Assembly: GCA_026786125.1 (NCBI GenBank)
Contig: JAJAYU010000357.1
Coordinates: forward strand, 1 to 15,417
DNA: 15,417 nucleotides
Direction: 5' to 3'
DNA from: Chamaesiphon sp.
Lineage (GTDB): Bacteria > Cyanobacteriota > Cyanobacteriia > Cyanobacteriales > Chamaesiphonaceae
Every line of letters starts with the position of its first letter. The first letter of the stretch is position 1. Of the stretch, positions 3,075 through 15,039 are shown in pieces. Position numbers and translations under genes: made by a program. The notes beneath the pieces were generated by a model. The model worked only from the letters and a program-made list of their open reading frames with translations, was not told the origin of the DNA and searched no databases.

Positions 3075-4073
3075 TTACACTCCTCGATCGGGCATATTCA
3101 CTGCCTCTGGGAGTATCTCTTCACTATGATTTGCAGCTTGATCGGCACTCCAAGGATCTTCCGGTTTGTATTCTAGTTTTGGGGCTGGAGGAGGAGGGGG
3201 GAGTTCAGTTCGGCTCTGCTCACTGACCACGGGAGAAGTTGGATCTTCAATTTGACTTTGCTCACTGACTGGTTGATTTTGGTCGGTGAGCGGCTCGTAC
3301 TGAGCGGAGCCGAAGTAAGCCGAACTGACAACTGGATTGAGATCGCCGCTGGGTGGTTGGACTTGTTGCTGCATCTGAGCAATCACAATATCGACAATTT
3401 CTTGCGGATCGGTGGTTTCGACTCCAAATTGTTCGGCTAGTTCGGCGACTAGGCTGGGATCTTTGTGCAACATTGCCGAAAATTCTTCGAGACTAATTTC
3501 ACGAGTTTCGGATGGTGCATTTTCGTCGTCTGAATATGATCCAAAAGACTGGGATGGGGGTGATTCCATCGGATCGTTGTCGATTAGTAGTTCCGCTGGT
3601 ATTTCGGGAAACTGATCAAAGGAACTGTTGGCTCCTGAACCTAGAGCATCAAATTCCATAATCGGAAGTAGGTCTGAAAATTCTTCAGCTTGACGATTGA
3701 GCAACCTCGATCCATAAGATCCAGCCAAATCGCCAATCTCACCGCAGTCAAGTTCAGCCAATTGCACCATCCGTCCAGCTAGTTCATAATTAGGAACGGG
3801 TGCCTGAATCAAGTTATTCCCAAACCTGTCGAGCCATTCCAGCCACTCGGATTTGCGGACTCGTTGCCTAATTTTATTAAAAAAACCGACAGCCCGTGGT
3901 TGTTGCCAGCCATGCGCTACACCTTCGAGCAACTGCATGAATAGATACTCTCGATCGGTATCATCAAGAGGTGGTAACTCGGCGGTACTGACCCGATTTA
4001 TCGATCGATCTGCCCCTTGCTTAGACAATTTACGAAACCACCTCACTAATGATTGCCAGATTTTTTTTAACAT
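3075..4073 (-). CDS. Conserved hypothetical protein upstream of rnhA
   Basis: I do not recognise a named domain in this 332-residue protein. Residues 1-130 look like a folded, helical domain: it opens with a basic amphipathic stretch (MLKKIWQSLVRWFRK), then LPPLDDTDREYLFMQLLEG and a Trp-rich segment (EWLEWLDRFGNN). Residues 135-190 are acidic and low in complexity. A second short helical segment (ISLEEFSAM to IVIAQMQQQ, 193-236) follows. The C-terminal 95 residues are Pro/Ser/Glu-rich and disordered, including a duplicated VSEQS and a run of prolines. It is the first gene of a likely operon, ending 6 bases before rnhA, and is divergent from dnaX with 127 bases between. The C-terminal part contains an inverted-repeat-rich stretch, described separately. 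A role linked to RNase HI is suggested only by position. Confidence 0.82.
   Translation of the reverse strand: MLKKIWQSLVRWFRKLSKQGADRSINRVSTAELPPLDDTDREYLFMQLLEGVAHGWQQPRAVGFFNKIRQRVRKSEWLEWLDRFGNNLIQAPVPNYELAGRMVQLAELDCGEIGDLAGSYGSRLLNRQAEEFSDLLPIMEFDALGSGANSSFDQFPEIPAELLIDNDPMESPPSQSFGSYSDDENAPSETREISLEEFSAMLHKDPSLVAELAEQFGVETTDPQEIVDIVIAQMQQQVQPPSGDLNPVVSSAYFGSAQYEPLTDQNQPVSEQSQIEDPTSPVVSEQSRTELPPPPPAPKLEYKPEDPWSADQAANHSEEILPEAVNMPDRGV
3206..3327. repeat. Inverted and direct repeats inside coding sequence
   Basis: CAGTTCGGCT (3206-3215) and AGCCGAACTG (3318-3327) are perfect 10-bp inverted repeats. Between them lie two direct copies of GCTCACTGAC (3218-3227 and 3260-3269), a near inverted copy at 3281-3291 (GGTCGGTGAGC), and TGAGCGGAGCCGAAG (3301-3315). 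The latter resembles the TGAGCGGAGTCGAA palindromes that are dispersed in cyanobacterial genomes. The stretch lies in frame in the disordered C-terminal part of the gene at 3075-4073 and encodes the VSEQS duplication and the SAYFGSAQYE segment. I infer that a dispersed repeat was captured as coding sequence. Confidence 0.55.
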
Positions 4074-6109: not shown

Positions 6110-6472
6110 CTATCGCTGAGGAATTAATTTCATTTTCACAATCAAATTTTTGAGTTTAGTTTTGCCACAAGGTTCAATGCTTTGACAATCATTTACCTTA
6201 ATGCGTTGATACGTTAGTCGTACCTGCTGGTTGAGGAGTTTAGTCTGGTTGCAAATATCAAAGTCAGCTCCAAGCTGATAAATTTTGCCACTAGTATTAA
6301 TTTCGACATAACACATCAGATCTCCATTTGTGAGCTTTAAAACTTTACCACTGGTAGGAAATGAATTAGATTTTTTGAATTTATTTGCTTCGCTAGGTGA
6401 TCCAGCTAAAAAATTTAAGCTAACGATCAGCCCAGCACAAGTTGCTGTTGTGAGATAATGATTTACTTTCAC
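6110..6472 (-). CDS. Small predicted secreted protein, unknown function
   Basis: A protein of about 120 residues, not recognised. It opens with a basic start and a hydrophobic segment (TTATCAGLIVSLNFLAG) followed by SPSEA-N, a plausible signal peptidase I site, so it is probably exported to the periplasm or beyond. The mature part is basic (many Lys), with three cysteines spaced as C-N18-C-N6-C that might form a disulfide, and a segment GKVLKLTNGDLMCYVEI that reads as beta strands. No in-frame ATG exists before the upstream stop: the start is GTG at 6470-6472 (chosen) or TTG at 6476-6478. It ends 4 bases from the dnaX stop, tail to tail, and lies downstream of cbiO by about 60 bases, so it may be co-transcribed with the cobalt operon. 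It could be a lineage-specific protein. Confidence 0.65.
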   Translation of the reverse strand: MKVNHYLTTATCAGLIVSLNFLAGSPSEANKFKKSNSFPTSGKVLKLTNGDLMCYVEINTSGKIYQLGADFDICNQTKLLNQQVRLTYQRIKVNDCQSIEPCGKTKLKNLIVKMKLIPQR

Positions 6473-6532
6473 GATCAAAATGTCTCTACTAATAAATAAT
6501 CTATAATCCTATCACAATGGGCAACCACCACA

Positions 6533-7381
6533 TTAGCTTTTCAATAGGTATTTGTCTAGATAAAGATTAAATTCCTCGATCGATCTAGGAGCAGACACTT
6601 CGGGTATTTTATCAGCAATTTTCGACCACATTTGCCAGAGGATTGGCATTCCCAATTCAAAGGTTGTCATTGATTGAAGCTGTTCAAAAACTGCCAGGGT
6701 TTCACCTTCAGCAATTAGCTCGCCTTGCTCCATCACCAATACCCAATCAGCCCATTGATAGACAAAATCTAAATCGTGGGTGGCGATTAATAGGGTAGTA
6801 CCCAATTTGGCGATCGAATCTAGTTCTGTCAAAAGATTACGAGTTTGAATCGGATCGAGATAAGCGGTTGGTTCATCTAGCAATAATAATTCAGGTTGCA
6901 ATACCATCACACCAGCGATACTGACTCGTTTTTTTTGACCTAAGCTAAGATGCTGAAGGGGCAACATCGCGAGGTTTTCTAAGTGAAAATCTGCGAGAGT
7001 TTTAGTTACTTTTATGGCTACTTCTGGATCTGGCAAACCTTGATTGCACAGTCCATAAGAGATGTCAGCGGCAACAGTCGGTGCCACTAATTGCTGTTCG
7101 GGATCTTGGAATACTAAGCCTACTCGTTGTCGCCAGCGATTGAGGGAAGACCTATCGAATGTGAGTGGAGTATTATCTAAAATAACTGTACCTCGATCGG
7201 GTTGGCATAGACCATCGGCAATCAGAAACATGGTAGATTTACCACAACCATTTTGACCAATAATTGCTGTCTTTTTATGCTTTGGCAACCGAAAGCTTAA
7301 TCCTTTTAAGGTTGGGGCTTTCGCCATTGGATAGCTATAGTAAATATCTTTAAATTCTAGTAAGTATTCACAATTAGTCAT
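6533..7381 (-). CDS. cbiO: Cobalt ECF transporter ATP-binding protein CbiO
   Basis: CbiO is the ATPase that powers cobalt import through CbiMNQ. All nucleotide-binding elements are present in 282 residues: GQNGCGKST at 42-50 (Walker A), VFQDPEQQL with Gln92 (Q-loop), LSLGQKKR at 145-152 (signature, with Leu in the variable third position), LLLLDEPTAYLD at 165-176 (Walker B and D-loop) and THD with His202 (switch). The FQDPEQQL segment is typical of ECF-family ATPases. It is the last transporter gene of the operon, separated from cbiQ by a 40-base spacer filled with heptamer repeats, and no Shine-Dalgarno is visible before its ATG. Only one ATPase gene is present, so the transporter probably uses a CbiO homodimer. 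Confidence 0.94.
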   Translation of the reverse strand: MTNCEYLLEFKDIYYSYPMAKAPTLKGLSFRLPKHKKTAIIGQNGCGKSTMFLIADGLCQPDRGTVILDNTPLTFDRSSLNRWRQRVGLVFQDPEQQLVAPTVAADISYGLCNQGLPDPEVAIKVTKTLADFHLENLAMLPLQHLSLGQKKRVSIAGVMVLQPELLLLDEPTAYLDPIQTRNLLTELDSIAKLGTTLLIATHDLDFVYQWADWVLVMEQGELIAEGETLAVFEQLQSMTTFELGMPILWQMWSKIADKIPEVSAPRSIEEFNLYLDKYLLKS

Positions 7382-7390
7382 TGAGGAAGT

Positions 7391-7418
7391 GAATGGTGAA
7401 TGGTGAATGGTGAATAGT
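7391..7418 (+). repeat. Tandem heptamer array (GAATGGT)3-GAATAGT inside the cbi operon
   Basis: Three perfect copies of GAATGGT and one GAATAGT occupy nearly the whole 40-base spacer between cbiQ and cbiO. Short tandem heptamers (STRR type) are characteristic of cyanobacterial spacers. Here they occupy the leader of cbiO, where a ribosome binding site would be expected. Confidence 0.85.
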
Positions 7419-7421
7419 TAC

Positions 7422-8213
7422 CTAAGATAGATAGAATATCTCGACCACGATCAGCGCAACACAACCAATAATCGACTCTCTTGCATAGCGGGGCGAATAC
7501 TCATAGGACTGAGGTTGCCAAAATCGAAACTCTTGTTGAAAACCGCGTGCTGTTACTCCCAAAATTAACTGCTGATAACGACTAGCCGTGCGCTGAATTA
7601 ATTGGCGCACTAATAAATTCAAGCTATGTATTCTTAACCGCTGAAGCCGATAACCACCACGGGAGATTTGAGCTGTGACGATTTTTTGGGCTGTGTCTGC
7701 TAATAGAAAGATAAACCGATAAACCAACAAAGCTAATTCAACTAAAATCTGTGGACAACCAACTTTCTGAGCCGTAGTTGCTAGATCGATCGCGGGAATC
7801 GTCAATACTATAAAGAATAGTGCGGAAGTACTCGCCAACGATCGAATCAAAACCTCGATCGCTTGAATCGAACCCTGACGGCTGAGATAGATCTGTCCGC
7901 CCCACGCGCCAATATGCCACAACGCATCAGCCTGGATCGTGGGGGTAATATTGCCAGCATACTCGATCGCCAAGGCTGGCATACTAGTAACGAGGAAGGT
8001 CATCACACCCAGGATCACCGAGCCATAGATCCGCCACGGAATCCCCGCATAAACCACGCTCCAACAGCTCATCCAGATAAAAATGAGGATTTGGACTGGA
8101 TAGTGGGTAATCAGGGCAAGCAGCAGTACTATAAGTACGAACCAGAGCTTTTGGGATGGGGGGAGATGGCGCAGCCGATTGCTGTAGGCGAGAGTATCGA
8201 GCTGAATATGCAC
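7422..8213 (-). CDS. cbiQ: Cobalt ECF transporter transmembrane protein CbiQ
   Basis: CbiQ is the T-component that couples the ATPase CbiO to the substrate-binding CbiM. The 263-residue protein has hydrophobic membrane segments near 22-37, 40-56, 62-83, 127-142 and 155-173 and a C-terminal one near 246-262. Between the last two lie the cytoplasmic helices with the coupling motifs AQISRGG (181-187) and TARGF (221-225), where T-components dock onto the ATPase. The start codon is GTG at 8211-8213: its G is the last base of the cbiN stop (TAGTG), so translation is probably coupled. Confidence 0.92.
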   Translation of the reverse strand: MHIQLDTLAYSNRLRHLPPSQKLWFVLIVLLLALITHYPVQILIFIWMSCWSVVYAGIPWRIYGSVILGVMTFLVTSMPALAIEYAGNITPTIQADALWHIGAWGGQIYLSRQGSIQAIEVLIRSLASTSALFFIVLTIPAIDLATTAQKVGCPQILVELALLVYRFIFLLADTAQKIVTAQISRGGYRLQRLRIHSLNLLVRQLIQRTASRYQQLILGVTARGFQQEFRFWQPQSYEYSPRYARESIIGCVALIVVEIFYLS

Positions 8214-8533
8214 TAATCGCGATCTTTGATGATCGCCACGACTTCATCGGCTTTCCGACGCTCGGTACGACCTTTATATAGTCCTAAAATATAACAAACA
8301 ACTCCCGATCCGATCGCCGCTTGAGTCGCAAATAGGAAAGTTTCAACCTCGCCGCCAGAGGGCTTGATCACAGGCTCGAACCAAGGTTTATAGCCAGGGT
8401 TAACTTCTTCGATTGCCGTAATATTAATACTATCTGTGGCTTTAAATTCCTTACCCTGATAGATCAAGACAGGAGCCATCGAAAGGATCACGGCACCACC
8501 CAACAACCAAGCATTAATTGATAGTTTCTGCAT
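8213..8533 (-). CDS. cbiN: Cobalt transport protein CbiN
   Basis: CbiN is a small membrane subunit found with CbiM in cobalt transporters. It is needed for efficient cobalt uptake, apparently by helping load the metal into CbiM. The 106-residue protein has the family plan: a first membrane helix (8-24), an extracytoplasmic loop with the hallmark [19 protein letters not shown], and a second helix (66-85) ending in [11 protein letters not shown] on the cytoplasmic side. Its start overlaps the end of cbiM by 20 bases and its stop overlaps the cbiQ start by one. Presence of CbiN, rather than NikN or NikL, supports cobalt as substrate. Confidence 0.93.
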
Positions 8534-9299
8534 CTAAATTATTTTTTTGTTGAAATAGTCCGAGTACTTTTAATTCCGATTGACCATAGTCCTGAAGCCA
8601 GTTCCAGACTAGCAAAGTCAATAATCCTTCGCTGATTGCCAACGGAATTTGGGTGACGGCAAAGACACCGACAAATTTAATAAAAGCTGCCATGAATCCA
8701 CCTTGTACGGCGGGGAAAGCGAGGGCTAATTGGATCGCTGTAACTAGGTAAGTACATAGATCCTCTAACATTGATGCCATAAACACGGCAACTTTTTGAT
8801 GTCCAGTTTTGGCGATCGCATTGTACACGACATAAGCTACCATCGGGCCAACAATTGCCATCGAGAAAGCGTTTGCGCCTAAAGTTGTCAGTCCGCCGTG
8901 GGCGAGTAATATCGCCTGAAATAATAATACTAATCCACCCATCACCGACATCGCCAGGGGACCGAATAAAATCGTACCTAAGCCTGTGCCTGTGGGATGG
9001 GAGCTACTGCCATTGACAGAAGGAATCTTGAGAGCAGAGAGGACGAAGGTGAAGGCTCCAGCTAATGCTAGCAGCAGTTTCAGTTCTGGGTGTGCTTTAG
9101 TAATTTGATCGATTGATCGCAAGCCCAATACAAAGAATGGGATCGCTAATACCCACCAAAAGATTGCCCACTGCACGGGTAAATAGCCTTCAGCGATGTG
9201 CATGGCATGAGCAGGAGTTGGTGAGCCGATTACTAAATAGCTGCTCAAGCCAATCATTGCTAGCAATGTAGCAACTTTTTTAGACCAATATTTTGTCAC
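8514..9299 (-). CDS. cbiM: Cobalt ECF transporter substrate-binding protein CbiM
   Basis: CbiM is the S-component that captures the metal ion. The 261-residue protein begins with a signal peptide-like segment ([21 protein letters not shown]) followed by MHIAEGYLP. Cleavage after AHA would leave Met33-His34 at the mature N-terminus, which in the related NikM2 structure supplies metal ligands together with a second histidine; here that is His101 in the SSSHPTGTG segment. About six hydrophobic helices follow. The start is GTG at 9297-9299 with GAGG (9306-9309) six bases upstream. It is the first gene of cbiMNQO and lies 32 bases downstream of a cobalamin riboswitch. Confidence 0.94.
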
Positions 9300-9575: not shown

Positions 9576-12347
9576 CTAGCCACGACTCCCCAATTGCTGT
9601 AATTTACGAATGATCCGATCGTGTTGAAGATCTGCTGGTTGTGGCAGTTCGGAGTTGCGAGATGCTTCCTTCTGTGCCGCGCTGGGCAGGGGGCGGGCAT
9701 CAAATTGATATAGTCCCATTTGGGCGTATTCTAGGGCAGAATAACTTTGAGATTCACCAGCGGGGGCTTGAATGTCGGCACCTGCTTCAATTAGTAAATT
9801 AACGATTTCACTATAGCCGGAGTAGGCAGCACTGGCGATCGGGGAGAAACCTAATTTATCGGTTAAATTAACATTTGCTCCAGCTTGGATTAATAACTCG
9901 ACAATCTGAGTATGTCCAGCGGCGGCGGCATTACCGATGGCTGCACCACGATCGAGATCGAGATTGACTTTGGTAGCTAATAACGAGCGGACTCGATCAA
10001 TATTACCAGCCGCCGCTGCTTGAATTAGTTGGATCGATTCCAATCCGACGGTTGAGGCACCTGCTTGCATCAGTAGATTTAGCATCGAGTAATTTTCCGC
10101 AGTAGCTACTGATGTGAGTACGGTGTGCCCGCGATCGTCGTGGAGATCGAGATTGGCACCACCAGCGATCAGTGTCTCGACACAATCCAGATAGCCAGAA
10201 CCAGCTAGCGCAGCGTAGAAAACCGCTGTTTTACCCCCAGCTCCTCGTTGATTGACATCGGCACCACCAGCAATCAATAATTTGGCAACCTGTTGACGAT
10301 TACTCGCAAAGAAACTCCCCGCTGCGAGCATCAGTGCAGTCATTCCCGCCCCTAAGCCATTGTCATCGCTGAGGAGATTGGGATCCGCACCAGCAGCTAA
10401 TAAAGTGTTGACGATCGATCGATGACCATAATATGCCGCAACCATCAGGGCTGTATGCCCTTTAGCTCCCAGTTCATCGATTTCAATCCCGATCTCAATT
10501 GCCCGATTTACCTCATCAATATTGCCCTCTGTCGCCATTTCGATCAATTTCTCGATCGGACGATTTTGCTGGCGAATCCGGCGTTTGTGGGTGGCTTGGA
10601 GTAGATGTTCACCATCTCGATCAGCACAGAGTCGAATGGCTGTATTGACGAGCGGATAGAGATAATTGTAAATTTCTCGCTCTTCACATTTGGCAGCGAG
10701 GATAATTGGTGTCTCACCACGGCTCCAGACATTGACATTTGCCCCAGCAGTCACCAATAGCTGGACTACTGCTCGATGCCCATTTTGAATCGCAGCAAGT
10801 AAGGCTGTCCAACCATCTGGGGCAATGGGTGTATTGACATCGACTCGGCGAGCCAGCAGAAGTTGGATAATTTCGGCTTCACCGTTTTCAGCGGCTAAAC
10901 CTAGTGAGGTAGTGGATGTGCTGCCACAGTGAGGATTGGCTCCAGCTTTGAGCAGACACCCAACGATTTCGATATGTCCTCGATCAATTGCCATCCCTAA
11001 TGGTGCGTAGCCCAAATTCCAATCATACCGATCGAGACTAGCTCCAGCTTCGATCGATTGTTTCACCAAATCTAGATCGTCATCAATTACCGCCGCCATC
11101 AGGGAAGTATTAGTGGCATTTTCATCATAAGAGGGAGTTAGATCGGCTGATATTGGCTCACGCCGTCCAAAAATATCTGTAGGATCCTCATCGATCGTAT
11201 AGTCCGGCTCGTCTTCACCAGCAATGACCGGAAATAAACTAGAATCAAGATCAGAGAGCATGTATCCTGCCAATGGAGCGGATATATCCGCACTTTGTAG
11301 ATCTGCATCGATTTCATCCATTACTCTGGATAGATCGAGATCGCTGAGATCCATCGCATAGGTTTCATTTTCGGTATAAGTATCGTTGTGCTCTGGACTG
11401 CCTTCAGCAATCGAGATAAAGCTATTTTCTGTACTTGATCGAGGAACTACACCATTAGACTTCGCGGTGTCATCAATGCCCCCCATGATTTGGGCGAGGT
11501 TGAGATCGTCGAGATCGATGGCGTAGGTTTCGCCTTCTACCCAGTCTTCAACGACACCAGCATTTTCAACAGTGACAGTAGCAACTACTCCCAGTGATTG
11601 TGGTTCTGTAGCTGTTGCGTCCATGAGTTGGGCAAGATGGAGATCGTCAATATCGATCGCATAAGTTTCGCCCTCTCCCCATTCCTCACTCATGGCAGTT
11701 CCGTCTTCATCGATCTCTGGAGTGCCGATCATCCACTCAATGCGAGCAGACTCTTGTTGCTGAAGGACATCTACTAAAAAGCCCTCCTGTGCCAAATTTC
11801 CGCCACTTTCACTAAGCTCAGGGATCAGCAAATTGAAATTATCTATCACGTAGGTTTCATTTGCTTCCCATTCGCCCATCGGCACCGACAAGCAATCTGG
11901 CTCCTCTTGGCTCTCAGCAGTGAGTCGATCTAGATCGCGACTGAGATCAAAGGCATAAGTCTCGCTCGGCTGAAATTCAACCTTTTGGGCTGAATTATTG
12001 AGCGAAGTCATGGTGAGTTCGCTATCTACAAATATTTCTGAGTTGTTGCCAATCATCGAACTATCAGAGATTTGATTCGCTGCAAAAATCTCATCCAGAT
12101 CGAAGGCGTAAGTAACTTCAGCCGAAGATACAACTGGCTCTTGTGATACCTGCATCTGAGCACCAGCAGTGATAAGTAGATCGACGATCTCCAGATTACC
12201 CCGCTGACGAGCTACCATCAATGGAGTTTGTCCACGATCGTTCGGGTGATTGATTGCTACCCCTGAATCGATGATCAGTTTTACTCGATTGTAATTAACT
12301 GTCGAAATCGCATCAAATAAGTTCTGAGGTTGGGGATCTACACTCAT
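9576..12347 (-). CDS. Large ankyrin-repeat protein with central ETYAxDL motif array
   Basis: Ankyrin repeats are protein-binding modules; no enzyme domain is visible. From the ATG at 12345-12347 the protein has 923 residues; a longer frame exists only with a TTG at 12434 and adds an atypical 29 residues, so I prefer the ATG. Residues 7-66 hold two N-terminal ankyrin units (DRGQTPLMVARQRGNLEIVDLLITAGA). Residues 70-400 are acidic, low in complexity, and contain six copies of an ETYAxDL-like motif with Tyr at 80, 131, 166, 229, 275 and 330, the later ones continuing as DDLxLAQxM. Residues 413-862 hold about a dozen ankyrin units, interrupted by a degenerate stretch near 545-600 with a basic segment (HKRRIRQQNR). 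The C-terminus is polar. There is no signal peptide or membrane helix, so it is probably cytoplasmic. It is a single gene, flanked on both sides by the same octamer repeats. Partner and role are unknown. Confidence 0.9.
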   Translation of the reverse strand: MSVDPQPQNLFDAISTVNYNRVKLIIDSGVAINHPNDRGQTPLMVARQRGNLEIVDLLITAGAQMQVSQEPVVSSAEVTYAFDLDEIFAANQISDSSMIGNNSEIFVDSELTMTSLNNSAQKVEFQPSETYAFDLSRDLDRLTAESQEEPDCLSVPMGEWEANETYVIDNFNLLIPELSESGGNLAQEGFLVDVLQQQESARIEWMIGTPEIDEDGTAMSEEWGEGETYAIDIDDLHLAQLMDATATEPQSLGVVATVTVENAGVVEDWVEGETYAIDLDDLNLAQIMGGIDDTAKSNGVVPRSSTENSFISIAEGSPEHNDTYTENETYAMDLSDLDLSRVMDEIDADLQSADISAPLAGYMLSDLDSSLFPVIAGEDEPDYTIDEDPTDIFGRREPISADLTPSYDENATNTSLMAAVIDDDLDLVKQSIEAGASLDRYDWNLGYAPLGMAIDRGHIEIVGCLLKAGANPHCGSTSTTSLGLAAENGEAEIIQLLLARRVDVNTPIAPDGWTALLAAIQNGHRAVVQLLVTAGANVNVWSRGETPIILAAKCEEREIYNYLYPLVNTAIRLCADRDGEHLLQATHKRRIRQQNRPIEKLIEMATEGNIDEVNRAIEIGIEIDELGAKGHTALMVAAYYGHRSIVNTLLAAGADPNLLSDDNGLGAGMTALMLAAGSFFASNRQQVAKLLIAGGADVNQRGAGGKTAVFYAALAGSGYLDCVETLIAGGANLDLHDDRGHTVLTSVATAENYSMLNLLMQAGASTVGLESIQLIQAAAAGNIDRVRSLLATKVNLDLDRGAAIGNAAAAGHTQIVELLIQAGANVNLTDKLGFSPIASAAYSGYSEIVNLLIEAGADIQAPAGESQSYSALEYAQMGLYQFDARPLPSAAQKEASRNSELPQPADLQHDRIIRKLQQLGSRG

Positions 12348-12456
12348 GGTTGCTGTGTCCAAATTTTCTGGGTGACAGGTAATGTGCCCAATGCACTGCC
12401 TCTGTCTCTCTATAATTCCCAAATTATTAGCCAAAATTGCTAGATAGCTTTTTTTA

Positions 12457-12585: not shown

Positions 12586-13161
12586 ATGTTCCGTCTCATT
12601 CCTCTCAGTCTAGTACTGATCAATCTTGGTGGCTTACTCACGCTCATCGGCTTTTTTGCATACGCCATTCAAGATGCCACCTTCAATTTGATTGGCTTTT
12701 TCTATGGTATTCCCTTGTTCTTGGGCGGTTTAGCACTCAAATCAGCAGAACTTGAACCAGTTCCTTTTACGGAGCTAACTTCTGCTAGTATTCTAAAATT
12801 ACGTGATCGATCGGCGACAGATACACTCAATCAAATCCGTAAAGATGTTACCCGCTATCGGTACGGGCAAGAAGCACATTTAGATATCGCCCTAGAAAAA
12901 TTAGGGTTAGCTCCTAGTGATGATGATCGACCAGTTCTCACCGGAATTAAAGAGTCAGAAATTGGTGGTGATTATGCCCTCACCCTAGATTTTTATTCTC
13001 CTTTTATGAAAATTGATGTTTGGCAAGAAAAAAATGAAAAAATTACTAAATTTTTCGGGCCAGGTGTCACGGCACATATTGACTATGATGATACCTCAGA
13101 AAAAGTTAATCTTACTTTAATTGCTGATAAGGTTCCCGTTCCAGTTACTTCTCCAGCCTAA
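12586..13161 (+). CDS. DUF2854 family membrane protein
   Basis: This 191-residue protein matches the DUF2854 family, conserved in cyanobacteria and in plastid-bearing eukaryotes, whose function is not known to me. Two hydrophobic segments form an N-terminal hairpin in the membrane: residues 5-27 (LIPLSLVLINLGGLLTLIGFFAY) and 34-51 (NLIGFFYGIPLFLGGLAL). They are followed by a soluble domain of about 135 residues with KLRDRSATDTLNQIRKDVTRYRYGQEAHLDIALEKLGL, then beta-rich segments (DYALTLDFYSPFM, KITKFFGPGVTAHIDYD, KVNLTLIADKVPV). The last 17 bases overlap the end of the opposing gene at 13145-13402. The family name is from recall of the pattern, not from a search. Confidence 0.85.
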   Translation: MFRLIPLSLVLINLGGLLTLIGFFAYAIQDATFNLIGFFYGIPLFLGGLALKSAELEPVPFTELTSASILKLRDRSATDTLNQIRKDVTRYRYGQEAHLDIALEKLGLAPSDDDRPVLTGIKESEIGGDYALTLDFYSPFMKIDVWQEKNEKITKFFGPGVTAHIDYDDTSEKVNLTLIADKVPVPVTSPA

Positions 13162-13402
13162 CAACATACCATTGCAAGTACTCTCCTGGAGCTAGATCCA
13201 ACTCGCAGCTAGTATCGAGTAGATATTGAACTTTCGCATCAACACCACTAATTTGCTGGACATCGATCGGTAGATCTTCAGCAAATTTGATTACAATCTG
13301 CTTAAGCTTTTCAAACATTTCTGCTGGCGTAAGTATTTCTTCTGGTCGATCTGTTTCCAGCACCACATAAGCATCGTTGTTGAACATTAGAGAGTCTGAC
13401 AT
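13145..13402 (-). CDS. CRR7-like protein (chlororespiratory reduction 7 family)
   Basis: This 85-residue soluble protein resembles the CRR7 family. In Arabidopsis CRR7 is a stromal protein needed for stable accumulation of the chloroplast NDH complex, and small homologues occur in cyanobacteria. The recognisable parts are YVVLETDRPEEILTPAEMFEKLKQIV near the N-terminus, a central VDAKVQYLLDTSCELD, and the C-terminal signature PGEYLQWYVVRLEK. A role in NDH-1 complex biogenesis in this organism is inference from the plant protein. The ATG at 13400-13402 fits the family length. It overlaps the 3' end of the DUF2854 gene by 17 bases, tail to tail. Confidence 0.8.
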   Translation of the reverse strand: MSDSLMFNNDAYVVLETDRPEEILTPAEMFEKLKQIVIKFAEDLPIDVQQISGVDAKVQYLLDTSCELDLAPGEYLQWYVVRLEK

Positions 13403-13417
13403 TATTTTAAGAAATAG

Positions 13418-13603
13418 AGGATAGGGAACAGGGAATAGAGTTAAATCAAAATTTACACTTCGATTCTATACTAAGAATAAAAGCTGAATTTAATATTTAT
13501 ATTTGGTTTGTACTTTCACATCTCTGTCAGCTAATTCAACCTTGATTCTTCTGACTATCTTAATCCCTATCGCCTATTCCCTGTCCCCTACACCCTATCC
13601 CCT
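13418..13603. repeat. Inverted GGGAACAGGGAATAG-type repeats flanking the CRR7-selO spacer
   Basis: GGGAACAGGGAATAG at 13424-13438 is matched in opposite orientation by CTATTCCCTGTCCCC at 13574-13588 (14 of 15). Both lie within longer heptamer-like runs: GGATAGGGAACAGGG on the left, and CCCTATC / CCCTGTC / CCCTACA / CCCTATC units on the right reaching to within a few bases of the selO ATG. The roughly 130 bases between the arms are AT-rich and hold no gene. The two arms could pair into a long hairpin. Confidence 0.7.
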
Positions 13604-13608
13604 AATTT

Positions 13609-15039
13609 ATGAATCCAATTCTCGCACTTAACTACGAACCTGCCTTAGAATCCCTGGGTGCTGATTACTATGATGATGTCGTAGCTGCTGAGTTTTCGCA
13701 ACAGACTTTACGATTTCGGAATGATGATCTGTTAATTCAGTTGGGATTGGATCCTGGTGGAGTAAAGGATGCCGATTTCACCGAAGCTTTTGGTAAATTT
13801 GTTAGTCCAGCTCATCCATTCCTAGCTCTACGCTACCACGGTTATCAATTTGGTGAGTACAATCCAGGCTTGGGTGATGGACGGGGCTTTCTGTATGGAC
13901 AGGTGCGTGGGATAGATGGCGAACTGTACGACTTTGGTACCAAAAGTTCGGGGCGAACTCCTTATTCTCGCGGTGGCGATGGGATGTTGACGCTCAAGGG
14001 TGGTGTGCGGGAGGTTTTGGCAGCGGAAGCCCTGCATCAGATGGGAGTAAGGACTTCGCGGTGTCTGAGTATGGTAGAAACAGGTTTGGATCTATGGCGG
14101 GGAGATGAACCATCACCAACTAGATCAGCTGTAATGGTGCGATTTAGTCGATCGCATATCCGGTTTGGCACCTTTGAACGATTAAATTATCTCAAGCGCA
14201 AGGATTTAATTCAGAAGTTATTAGATCATGTGATTGAATATTATTATGGTCATCTGAGTCAGGTTGCTGGGGTCGATCGATATATTGAATTCTACACTGA
14301 ATTAGTCCAACGAGTTGCAGAACTAGTCGCTCAATGGATGGCAGCAGGGTTCTGTCATGCAGTCTTAAATACTGATAACATGTCAATTACTGGCGAAAGT
14401 TTTGATTACGGCCCTTTTGCCTTTTTGCCTAGTTATAATCCTGACTTTACGGCTGCTTATTTTGATCATTATGGCCGCTATAGCTATGGCAATCAACCAG
14501 GTATCTGTAAGCTCAATCTAGAGCTACTCCAGCAGCCTTTAGCCGCAGTTATCGATCGGGCTGAGATGACTACAGCTCTAGCTAAATTTGAGGGATATTA
14601 TTTTCCTTATTATAAAAAGCTGATGCTTCGCAAATTGGGGTTTGAGAGTGTAACAACACCTATCAGAGATGAGTTGTTGGTAGCTACATTGCAACTATTA
14701 GCAGATACTCAGGTTGGCTACCATCAATTTTTCTTTGATGTGAGTCAAGCCTTTAAGCTGCGCTGGACAAATGATCTTAATTCAATGTTAAATGAGATCG
14801 GATTAATGCCGGAAGTGGTGGGAAATTCTGGTTATGAGCAGTGGTTACAACTTTATCATCAAGCTTTGAGCGAATTACCTGAAGCTGAATTAAATTTAGT
14901 TGGGAGTACTTTAGATCGATCGAATCCTCAAACTATTTTATTGCGTCCGCAAATTGAATCAATTTGGGATCCGATTGCTCAAGAGAATAATTGGGAGCCT
15001 TTTTATGATTTATTAGCCAAGATTAGAGCTGGTAAATAG
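13609..15039 (+). CDS. selO: SelO/YdiU-family protein adenylyltransferase (AMPylase pseudokinase)
   Basis: SelO proteins have a protein kinase fold that binds ATP upside down and transfer AMP to Ser, Thr or Tyr of target proteins; in bacteria they are linked to oxidative stress. The 476-residue protein carries the family motifs: YHGYQFG with LGDGRG (76-92), [15 protein letters not shown] with Lys112 (111-125), [14 protein letters not shown] with Glu135 (133-146), [12 protein letters not shown] (176-187), [13 protein letters not shown] with Asn254 and Asp256 (250-262) and FDYGPFAFL with Asp266 (265-273). The last two hold the metal-binding and catalytic acidic residues, so the enzyme looks intact. 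No selenocysteine is evident and the C-terminus (IRAGK) lacks the Sec/Cys tail of other members. The ATG lies directly after a pyrimidine-rich repeat, with no visible ribosome binding site. It may be co-transcribed with the dehydrogenase 41 bases downstream. Confidence 0.94.

Follow-up and report, generated by a model that had tools for sequence, protein, structure and literature searches.

An ordered array of tyrosine motifs in the acidic linker of a Chamaesiphon ankyrin protein

The ankyrin protein and its six motif copies

Chamaesiphon is a free-living cyanobacterium. In the window studied here, which is the whole 15,417-nucleotide stretch of contig JAJAYU010000357.1 (assembly GCA_026786125.1) of a Chamaesiphon species, the reverse strand encodes an ankyrin protein in which a long acidic linker, lying between two ankyrin blocks, carries six copies of a short motif built around a Thr-Tyr pair (Table 1). 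Ankyrin repeats were recognized at scores above the Pfam gathering cut-offs (Ank_2, 219 bits against 27.3; Ank, 184 bits against 21.1). Residues are counted from the ATG at position 12347, so that the region 11328-12116 singled out by an earlier sequence-only reading of this DNA corresponds to residues 78-340. The ATG is preferred to an alternative TTG start at 12434 because the first residues read from it, M1-S2-V3-D4-P5, are nearly invariant across the 95 aligned proteins described below.

The linker has a net charge of -69 over a 340-residue stretch and plots on the disordered side of the charge-hydropathy line, and its composition thus suggests that it is disordered. It has no significant match in Pfam or NCBIfam, where the hits other than ankyrin models, to CTC1 and Lsr2, were non-significant, and no significant relative in the PDB (best neogenin, E 0.066). 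In the same three collections no described repeat family was found that includes the motif.

Six matches to [EV]TY[AV][FIM]D lie in residues 71-345, and they stand exactly where the sequence-only reading had placed them, at Tyr 80, 131, 166, 229, 275 and 330. Across 20,000 composition shuffles the mean number of matches was 0.00015 and the maximum 1, and 64 self-similar 10-mer pairs (BLOSUM62 sum >= 28) were counted where 1000 shuffles averaged 0.3 and never exceeded 7; since the pattern was chosen post hoc, the shuffle figures give a distance from chance and not the outcome of a pre-planned test. The tails DDLHLAQLM, DDLNLAQIM and SDLDLSRVM, which had been described as common to three copies, indeed follow the last three tyrosine motifs. 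Successive tyrosines are 51, 35, 63, 46 and 55 residues apart. The sequence between copies had been described as unlike from copy to copy, which does not hold throughout, since copies 4 and 5 have W-x-E-G in common ahead of the motif, copies 4 to 6 have a similar tail, and relatives contain plain tandem duplicates.

Table 1. Features of the ankyrin protein in the window
Feature	Residues	Position	Strand	Remarks
Ankyrin scaffold protein		9579..12347	-	923 amino acids; ATG start at 12347; Pfam Ank_2, E 7.3e-66
N-terminal ankyrin pair	3-68	12144..12341	-	Repeat scan
Acidic linker	70-405	11133..12140	-	Composition, charge-hydropathy
Motif copy A	78-91	12075..12116	-	VTYAFDLDEIFAAN; Tyr80
Motif copy B	129-142	11922..11963	-	ETYAFDLSRDLDRL; Tyr131 (Tyr in 95/95)
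Motif copy C	164-176	11820..11858	-	ETYVIDNFNLLIP; Tyr166, 35 residues past copy B
Motif copy D1	227-242	11622..11669	-	ETYAIDIDDLHLAQLM; Tyr229
Motif copy D2	273-288	11484..11531	-	ETYAIDLDDLNLAQIM; Tyr275
Motif copy D3	328-343	11319..11366	-	ETYAMDLSDLDLSRVM; Tyr330
Conserved linker segment EPDY...TDIFG	380-397	11157..11210	-	No TY motif; conserved alignment columns
C-terminal ankyrin block	409-865	9753..11123	-	13 repeats; Pfam and repeat scan
Basic insertion KRRIRQQNR within ankyrin block	588-596	10560..10586	-	Invariant alignment columns

Order, copy number and constraint in relatives

A protein search with residues 70-420 (E <= 0.001) gave 173 matches, of which 120 were analysed; 95 of these 120 listed homologues, the window protein included, were aligned. 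Among the matches listed, the homologues that carry an organism name are named Chamaesiphon. All 120 contain the motif in 3 to 7 copies, 580 copies in total, and 580 of the 653 tyrosines of the array region lie inside a copy. The consensus is E-T-Y-[AVT]-[FIVM]-D-L. At the four conserved copies of the 95 aligned proteins, Thr occupies 375 of 378 positions, Tyr 371 of 378 and the Asp at +3 355 of 378. Loss of the motif from orthologues had been named as one outcome that would count against a repeated docking peptide; relatives within the genus keep it.

Four kinds of copy can be told apart: A (TY[TA]FDLDEVFAAN), B (ETYAFDLSxDLDRLT), C (NETYVxDNFxxLxP) and D (WEEGETYAIDLDDL). The layout A-B-C-D was found in 35 of the 95 proteins and A-B-C-D-D-D, that of the window protein, in 21, and most of the remaining 39 have other numbers of C or D copies; the expressions used to class the copies mislabel B as A in five rows, which read as AACDD but are really A-B-C-D-D. 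A and B are single in nearly all 95 proteins. When total copy number was placed on the tree of the ankyrin block, 24 steps were required, compared with a mean of 70 and a minimum of 60 for shuffled labels. By kind, C and D have come and gone repeatedly: parsimony gave 17 steps for C and 11 for D versus 4 for A and 5 for B, the A and B steps being in part label errors. Duplicates in tandem at distances of 17, 33 and 47 residues are visible in P0037, P0039 and the protein of genome G006.

The distance between B and C is 34-36 residues in 117 of the 120 listed homologues and that between A and B is 49-56 residues in 106 of the 117 in which both were found. Spacing is therefore nearly fixed on the N-terminal side of the array and loose on the C-terminal side, and the irregular spacing claimed by the sequence-only reading is true of the window protein itself but not across its relatives. 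Taken together, the array is non-uniform: its copies fall into four kinds, each tied to its position, expansion affects mainly C and D, and the B-C distance is fixed. Relatives such as P0037, P0043, P0049 and P0051 carry another repeated motif in the linker, I[PS]FENLI[DE]LIxQPxxxxxTEIEQ, which is absent from the window protein; one expression detected 1-3 copies in 57 of 123 proteins, none of them among P0001-P0036, the closest relatives of the window protein.

The fixed B-C distance, together with a well-conserved stretch that runs from B via LSVPMGEW to C, would also be expected if the A-B-C segment were a small folded or fold-on-binding domain and only the D copies were true repeats. We consider this quite improbable, as the linker is predicted from charge and hydropathy to be disordered, has no significant match to a fold family, and can carry duplicated C copies at distances of 17 to 42 residues, something scarcely compatible with a compact fold.

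Selection was compared between the motif cores, the rest of the linker and the ankyrin block through the ratio of nonsynonymous to synonymous substitution rates (dN/dS). Between the window and G006 it was 0.026 in the motif cores (42 codons), 0.264 in the rest of the linker and 0.074 in the ankyrin block; between the window and G004 the values were 0.094 (28 codons), 0.443 and 0.115. In two of three species pairs the motif codons are thus under constraint comparable to that of the ankyrin block, and linker sequence outside the motifs drifts. Across the alignment, identity to the window protein averages 0.68 for the six cores, 0.36 for the rest of the linker and 0.86 for the ankyrin block, the value for the cores being lowered because many relatives lack D1 and D2. 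The tandem duplicates of relatives would fit a neutral expansion of repeats without function in a loose linker; this explanation is very hard to reconcile with motif cores that are under purifying selection in two of three pairs as their surroundings diverge, and with A and B remaining single in nearly all proteins, and we give it almost no weight. The proposal of a repeated short binding peptide in place of a folded tandem repeat is therefore well supported: the motif is constrained, its order is conserved, copies come and go, and the linker matches no family significantly. The array is, however, one of distinct kinds of copy and not uniform.

Distribution, origin and gene neighbourhood

A degenerate DNA pattern for ETY[AV]ΦD, which misses copy A as it is spelled in most relatives, gave 30 matches in the 9 Chamaesiphon genomes, and 27 of these lie within the array gene. 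The other three fall in one SDR-enzyme-like frame and two short frames, a number close to the 2 matches of a reversed control pattern. The linker was found in 9 of 11 genomes of the family, that is, in all 9 of the genus and neither of the 2 of its sister genus. Among 386 cyanobacterial genomes across the phylum it was found in the source genome alone. A scan of a collection of 84,980 species, based on two peptide patterns, yielded 44 pattern matches and 7 confirmed loci, 6 titled Chamaesiphon and 1 uncultured cyanobacterium. We also considered that the array might occur on other kinds of protein, but the 4 matches of a linker-only profile search of a protein collection, which scored the top 8000 candidates within a length limit, all have ankyrin domains. 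As far as searched, the array is restricted to the genus Chamaesiphon and essentially to one gene, which answers the question of its spread in cyanobacteria that the sequence-only reading had raised.

Close homologues of the ankyrin block are rare, occurring in 5 of the 386 genomes at E <= 1e-60, the source genome included. Four outgroup homologues (L033, L035, L011 and L036, the last cut by a stop) possess an N-terminal ankyrin pair, an acidic linker and an ankyrin block homologous to that of the window protein (48% identical in L033). Their linker is shorter (103 residues in L035) and, unlike that of Chamaesiphon, has no Thr-Tyr and carries a segment of the form LGELIxQAT...FYxxFxxIVD. The linker of L033 was found in four relatives, two of which, P0125 and P0126, are named Nostoc. 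Two further outgroup homologues depart from this plan, L037 having another N-terminus and L010 none. Since outgroups share the plan without the array, the ankyrin-linker-ankyrin frame is wider than the array, and it is probably also older. A homology between the FENLI segment of other Chamaesiphon clades and the outgroup LGELI segment was considered and is unsupported (hhalign probability 3.6, E 0.012 in one comparison, with 4 of the 6 outgroups used). The basic insertion KRRIRQQNR, which splits the ankyrin block, is invariant at 7 of 9 positions in the 95 aligned proteins, and in outgroup homologues its counterpart, judged by eye, is likewise K- and R-rich; an acidic linker opposite a basic insertion may be the older design.

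Gene order around the ankyrin gene is kept in most of the genus: cbiO-cbiQ-cbiN-cbiM on one side (window 6533-9299) and DUF2854-CRR7-SelO on the other (12586-15039). The cbiM gene adjoins the ankyrin gene in 7 of 8 other genomes of the genus. SelO lies 1.26 kilobases away. Six other genomes have contigs long enough to show it, and in 5 of them it adjoins the ankyrin gene; the contig of the remaining one, G005, carries none of the neighbour genes. At four outgroup loci none of cbiMNQO, DUF2854, CRR7 and SelO was found, and we therefore treat the neighbourhood as inherited order and do not regard SelO or the cobalt-transport genes as functional partners. Elsewhere in the window, two frames without a Pfam match, at 3075-4073 (332 amino acids) and 6110-6478 (122 amino acids) near dnaX and rnhA, have matches at the corresponding location in several Chamaesiphon genomes. 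Scans of the window for Rfam families and transfer RNA genes were empty.

Conserved tyrosines and a nearby SelO gene raise the possibility that the motif tyrosines are modification sites, either phosphorylated by a bacterial tyrosine kinase (BY-kinase) or AMPylated by SelO, with the array serving as a multi-site switch. Tyr makes up 371 of the 378 letters at the conserved copies, the BY-kinase-type model TIGR01007 scores above cut-off in all 9 genomes of the genus, and SelO stays adjoining in most genomes, as given above. This explanation nevertheless seems unlikely to us. Fixation of the preceding Thr and of the Asp at +3 is about equal to that of Tyr itself. Copy A has no Tyr in 4 of the 95 proteins (C, Q, Q or L in its place) yet retains [FV]DLDE[VA]FA, FDLDEVFA being identical in one of them and changed once in each of the other three, and one extra copy, in P0026, has Phe for Tyr. 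A Tyr-less copy A that keeps its other residues, together with the equal fixation of Thr and Asp, suggests that the whole peptide matters and not the tyrosine alone. Moreover, TIGR01007 does not discriminate, as it matches all 14 control genomes and exceeds its cut-off in 5, and SelO was not found near the four outgroup homologues. Tyr-to-Phe changes are absent from the four conserved copies, but this was rejected as an indication of modification because tyrosine columns of the ankyrin block seldom change to Phe either (4 of 71 substitutions).

Candidate receptors and known counterparts

Because the motif is confined to one gene, its receptor should be either the protein itself or a dedicated partner; with 27 of 30 pattern matches in the array gene, a receptor that serves many other clients with the same peptide is unlikely. 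We tentatively favour a multivalent array of linear motifs that is recognized by one kind of receptor, most likely the ankyrin groove of the same protein. The own ankyrin block is preferred because ankyrin grooves bind extended peptides and because of the precedents of ankyrin-B and Espin1; peptide binding, the strand and helix character of the motif and the choice of this block as receptor are inferred. The T-Y-x-hydrophobic-D-L motifs would have a strand-like core, extended in the D copies by a helix-like tail, and each would act as a docking peptide. A, B and C might bind together as a set held in register, and additional C and D copies would tune the valency. In cis, the linker would fold back over the groove and be displaced by a client; in trans, contacts between motifs and grooves of different molecules could lead to multivalent self-assembly.

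Over 11 repeats and in the same 8 species, conservation of the ankyrin block is roughly double that of a control ankyrin protein (0.30 versus 0.58 bits), and in the 95 sequences its groove positions are more conserved than its back positions (0.57 versus 0.89 bits, p 0.016). Groove conservation was rejected as proof of docking in cis, since the control ankyrin protein in the same species shows the same bias. Several observations count against the own groove as receptor or against the picture as a whole. The groove bias is non-significant with 8 species (p 0.154) and the control protein is likewise biased (p 0.027). Residues fixed specifically in the genus are not significantly enriched in the groove (7 of 25 versus 40 of 264, p 0.15), groove positions show no clear basic character, and the C-terminal ankyrin part carries a net negative charge (-18). 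Versions of the ankyrin block that lack the motif occur both in six outgroup homologues, none of which has any Thr-Tyr pair, and within the genus in a shorter paralogue found in one genome, L063 of G007, a frame of 378 amino acids with the ankyrin block only, a short acidic N-terminus and no TY motif. In the closest species pair, window and G001, dN/dS shows no clear difference between motif (0.259, with a motif dS of just 0.039) and linker (0.313), the ankyrin block being at 0.050.

Nearly as likely is that the same array recruits several copies of a dedicated partner protein and that the ankyrin blocks bind other things. Variation in C and D copy number would fit the tuning of valency for such a partner, the ankyrin block occurs without the array and so presumably has other ligands there, and near-confinement of the motif to the array gene suits a specialized partner too. 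On the other side, no candidate partner was found, the neighbouring genes looking like inherited order. Returning to the groove of the protein itself, the fuller proposal of a linear-motif code invented within the genus as an ordered, expandable array and read by that groove, which would work as multivalent self-assembly or as a graded switch of self-inhibition and be an independently evolved counterpart, in a bacterium, of ankyrin-B and Espin1, is one that we hold as less likely than not.

The protein was not placed in any of the named ankyrin families searched. All 11 listed NCBIfam models for named ankyrin equivalogs (Dot/Icm Ank effectors, MzaA) stayed below cut-off (best 144.5 bits against 600). 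PADLOC returned PDC-M72A (5.6e-62), Ankyrin and MzaA; the best PDC-M72A stretch, residues 413-603, falls in the ankyrin block, and we take it as a general ankyrin match. A PDB sequence search with the whole protein retrieved ankyrin-1/ankyrin-2 entries (4rlv, 5y4d) among many designed ankyrin proteins. The literature search yielded no paper combining Chamaesiphon and ankyrin and no function for the protein, and of the strings ETYAFD and ETYAID with longer forms one matched a single 1962 text on tranquillizers, which looks like a scanning artefact. Eukaryotic scaffolds offer many examples of multivalent linear-motif arrays, but to our knowledge such arrays have rarely been documented in bacteria. 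As a kind, multivalent motif arrays on ankyrin scaffolds have eukaryotic precedents; the TYxΦD motif, the ordered A-B-C-D layout and the restriction to a single genus appear new as far as searched. With an array in one genus, a frame that exists without it and 120 listed natural variants of 3-7 copies, its origin, valency and receptor become directly testable in a bacterium.

Among known tyrosine-motif proteins are the EPIYA-type effectors, one of which, AnkA, is also an ankyrin protein. Like the motif described here, EPIYA motifs are short, place a tyrosine after an acidic residue, and occur in disordered regions in variable tandem copies (PMC3593179). Membership was rejected, since at the four conserved copies, with the consensus E-T-Y-[AVT]-hydrophobic-D-L, position -1 is Thr in 375 of 378 cases and position -2 is never Pro. 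In common is Tyr-Ala alone, and not in every copy, and EPIYA effectors are injected into host cells and phosphorylated inside them (PMC3593179).

Closer counterparts are ankyrin-B and Espin1, whose combination of a repeat solenoid with conserved segments is also found in the window protein (13 repeats plus 2, and an acidic linker whose disorder is predicted from composition). The ankyrin repeats of Espin1 bind the paired tyrosine-containing repeats ARB1 and ARB2 of Myo3 as well as Espin's own AI segment (PMC4758956). The likeness lies in a repeated tyrosine peptide, which the Espin1 groove binds with one end extended and the other helical, and which is mirrored in the ankyrin protein; by contrast, the Espin1 system is eukaryotic, has YY and KxL as its motif and two copies of it, and its binding was established by crystal structures and isothermal titration calorimetry. 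In ankyrin-B, several disordered linker and tail segments bind along the protein's own groove of 24 ankyrin repeats, and autoinhibition is reported for ankyrin-B/G (PMC5779224). Ankyrin-B/G and the Chamaesiphon protein both join a long ankyrin solenoid to a linker of the same chain, disordered or, here, predicted to be so, with several separate conserved segments, some of them acidic. They differ in that the segments of ankyrin-B/G are mutually distinct and their binding was measured, whereas those of Chamaesiphon are variants of one motif in a bacterium and are known from sequence.

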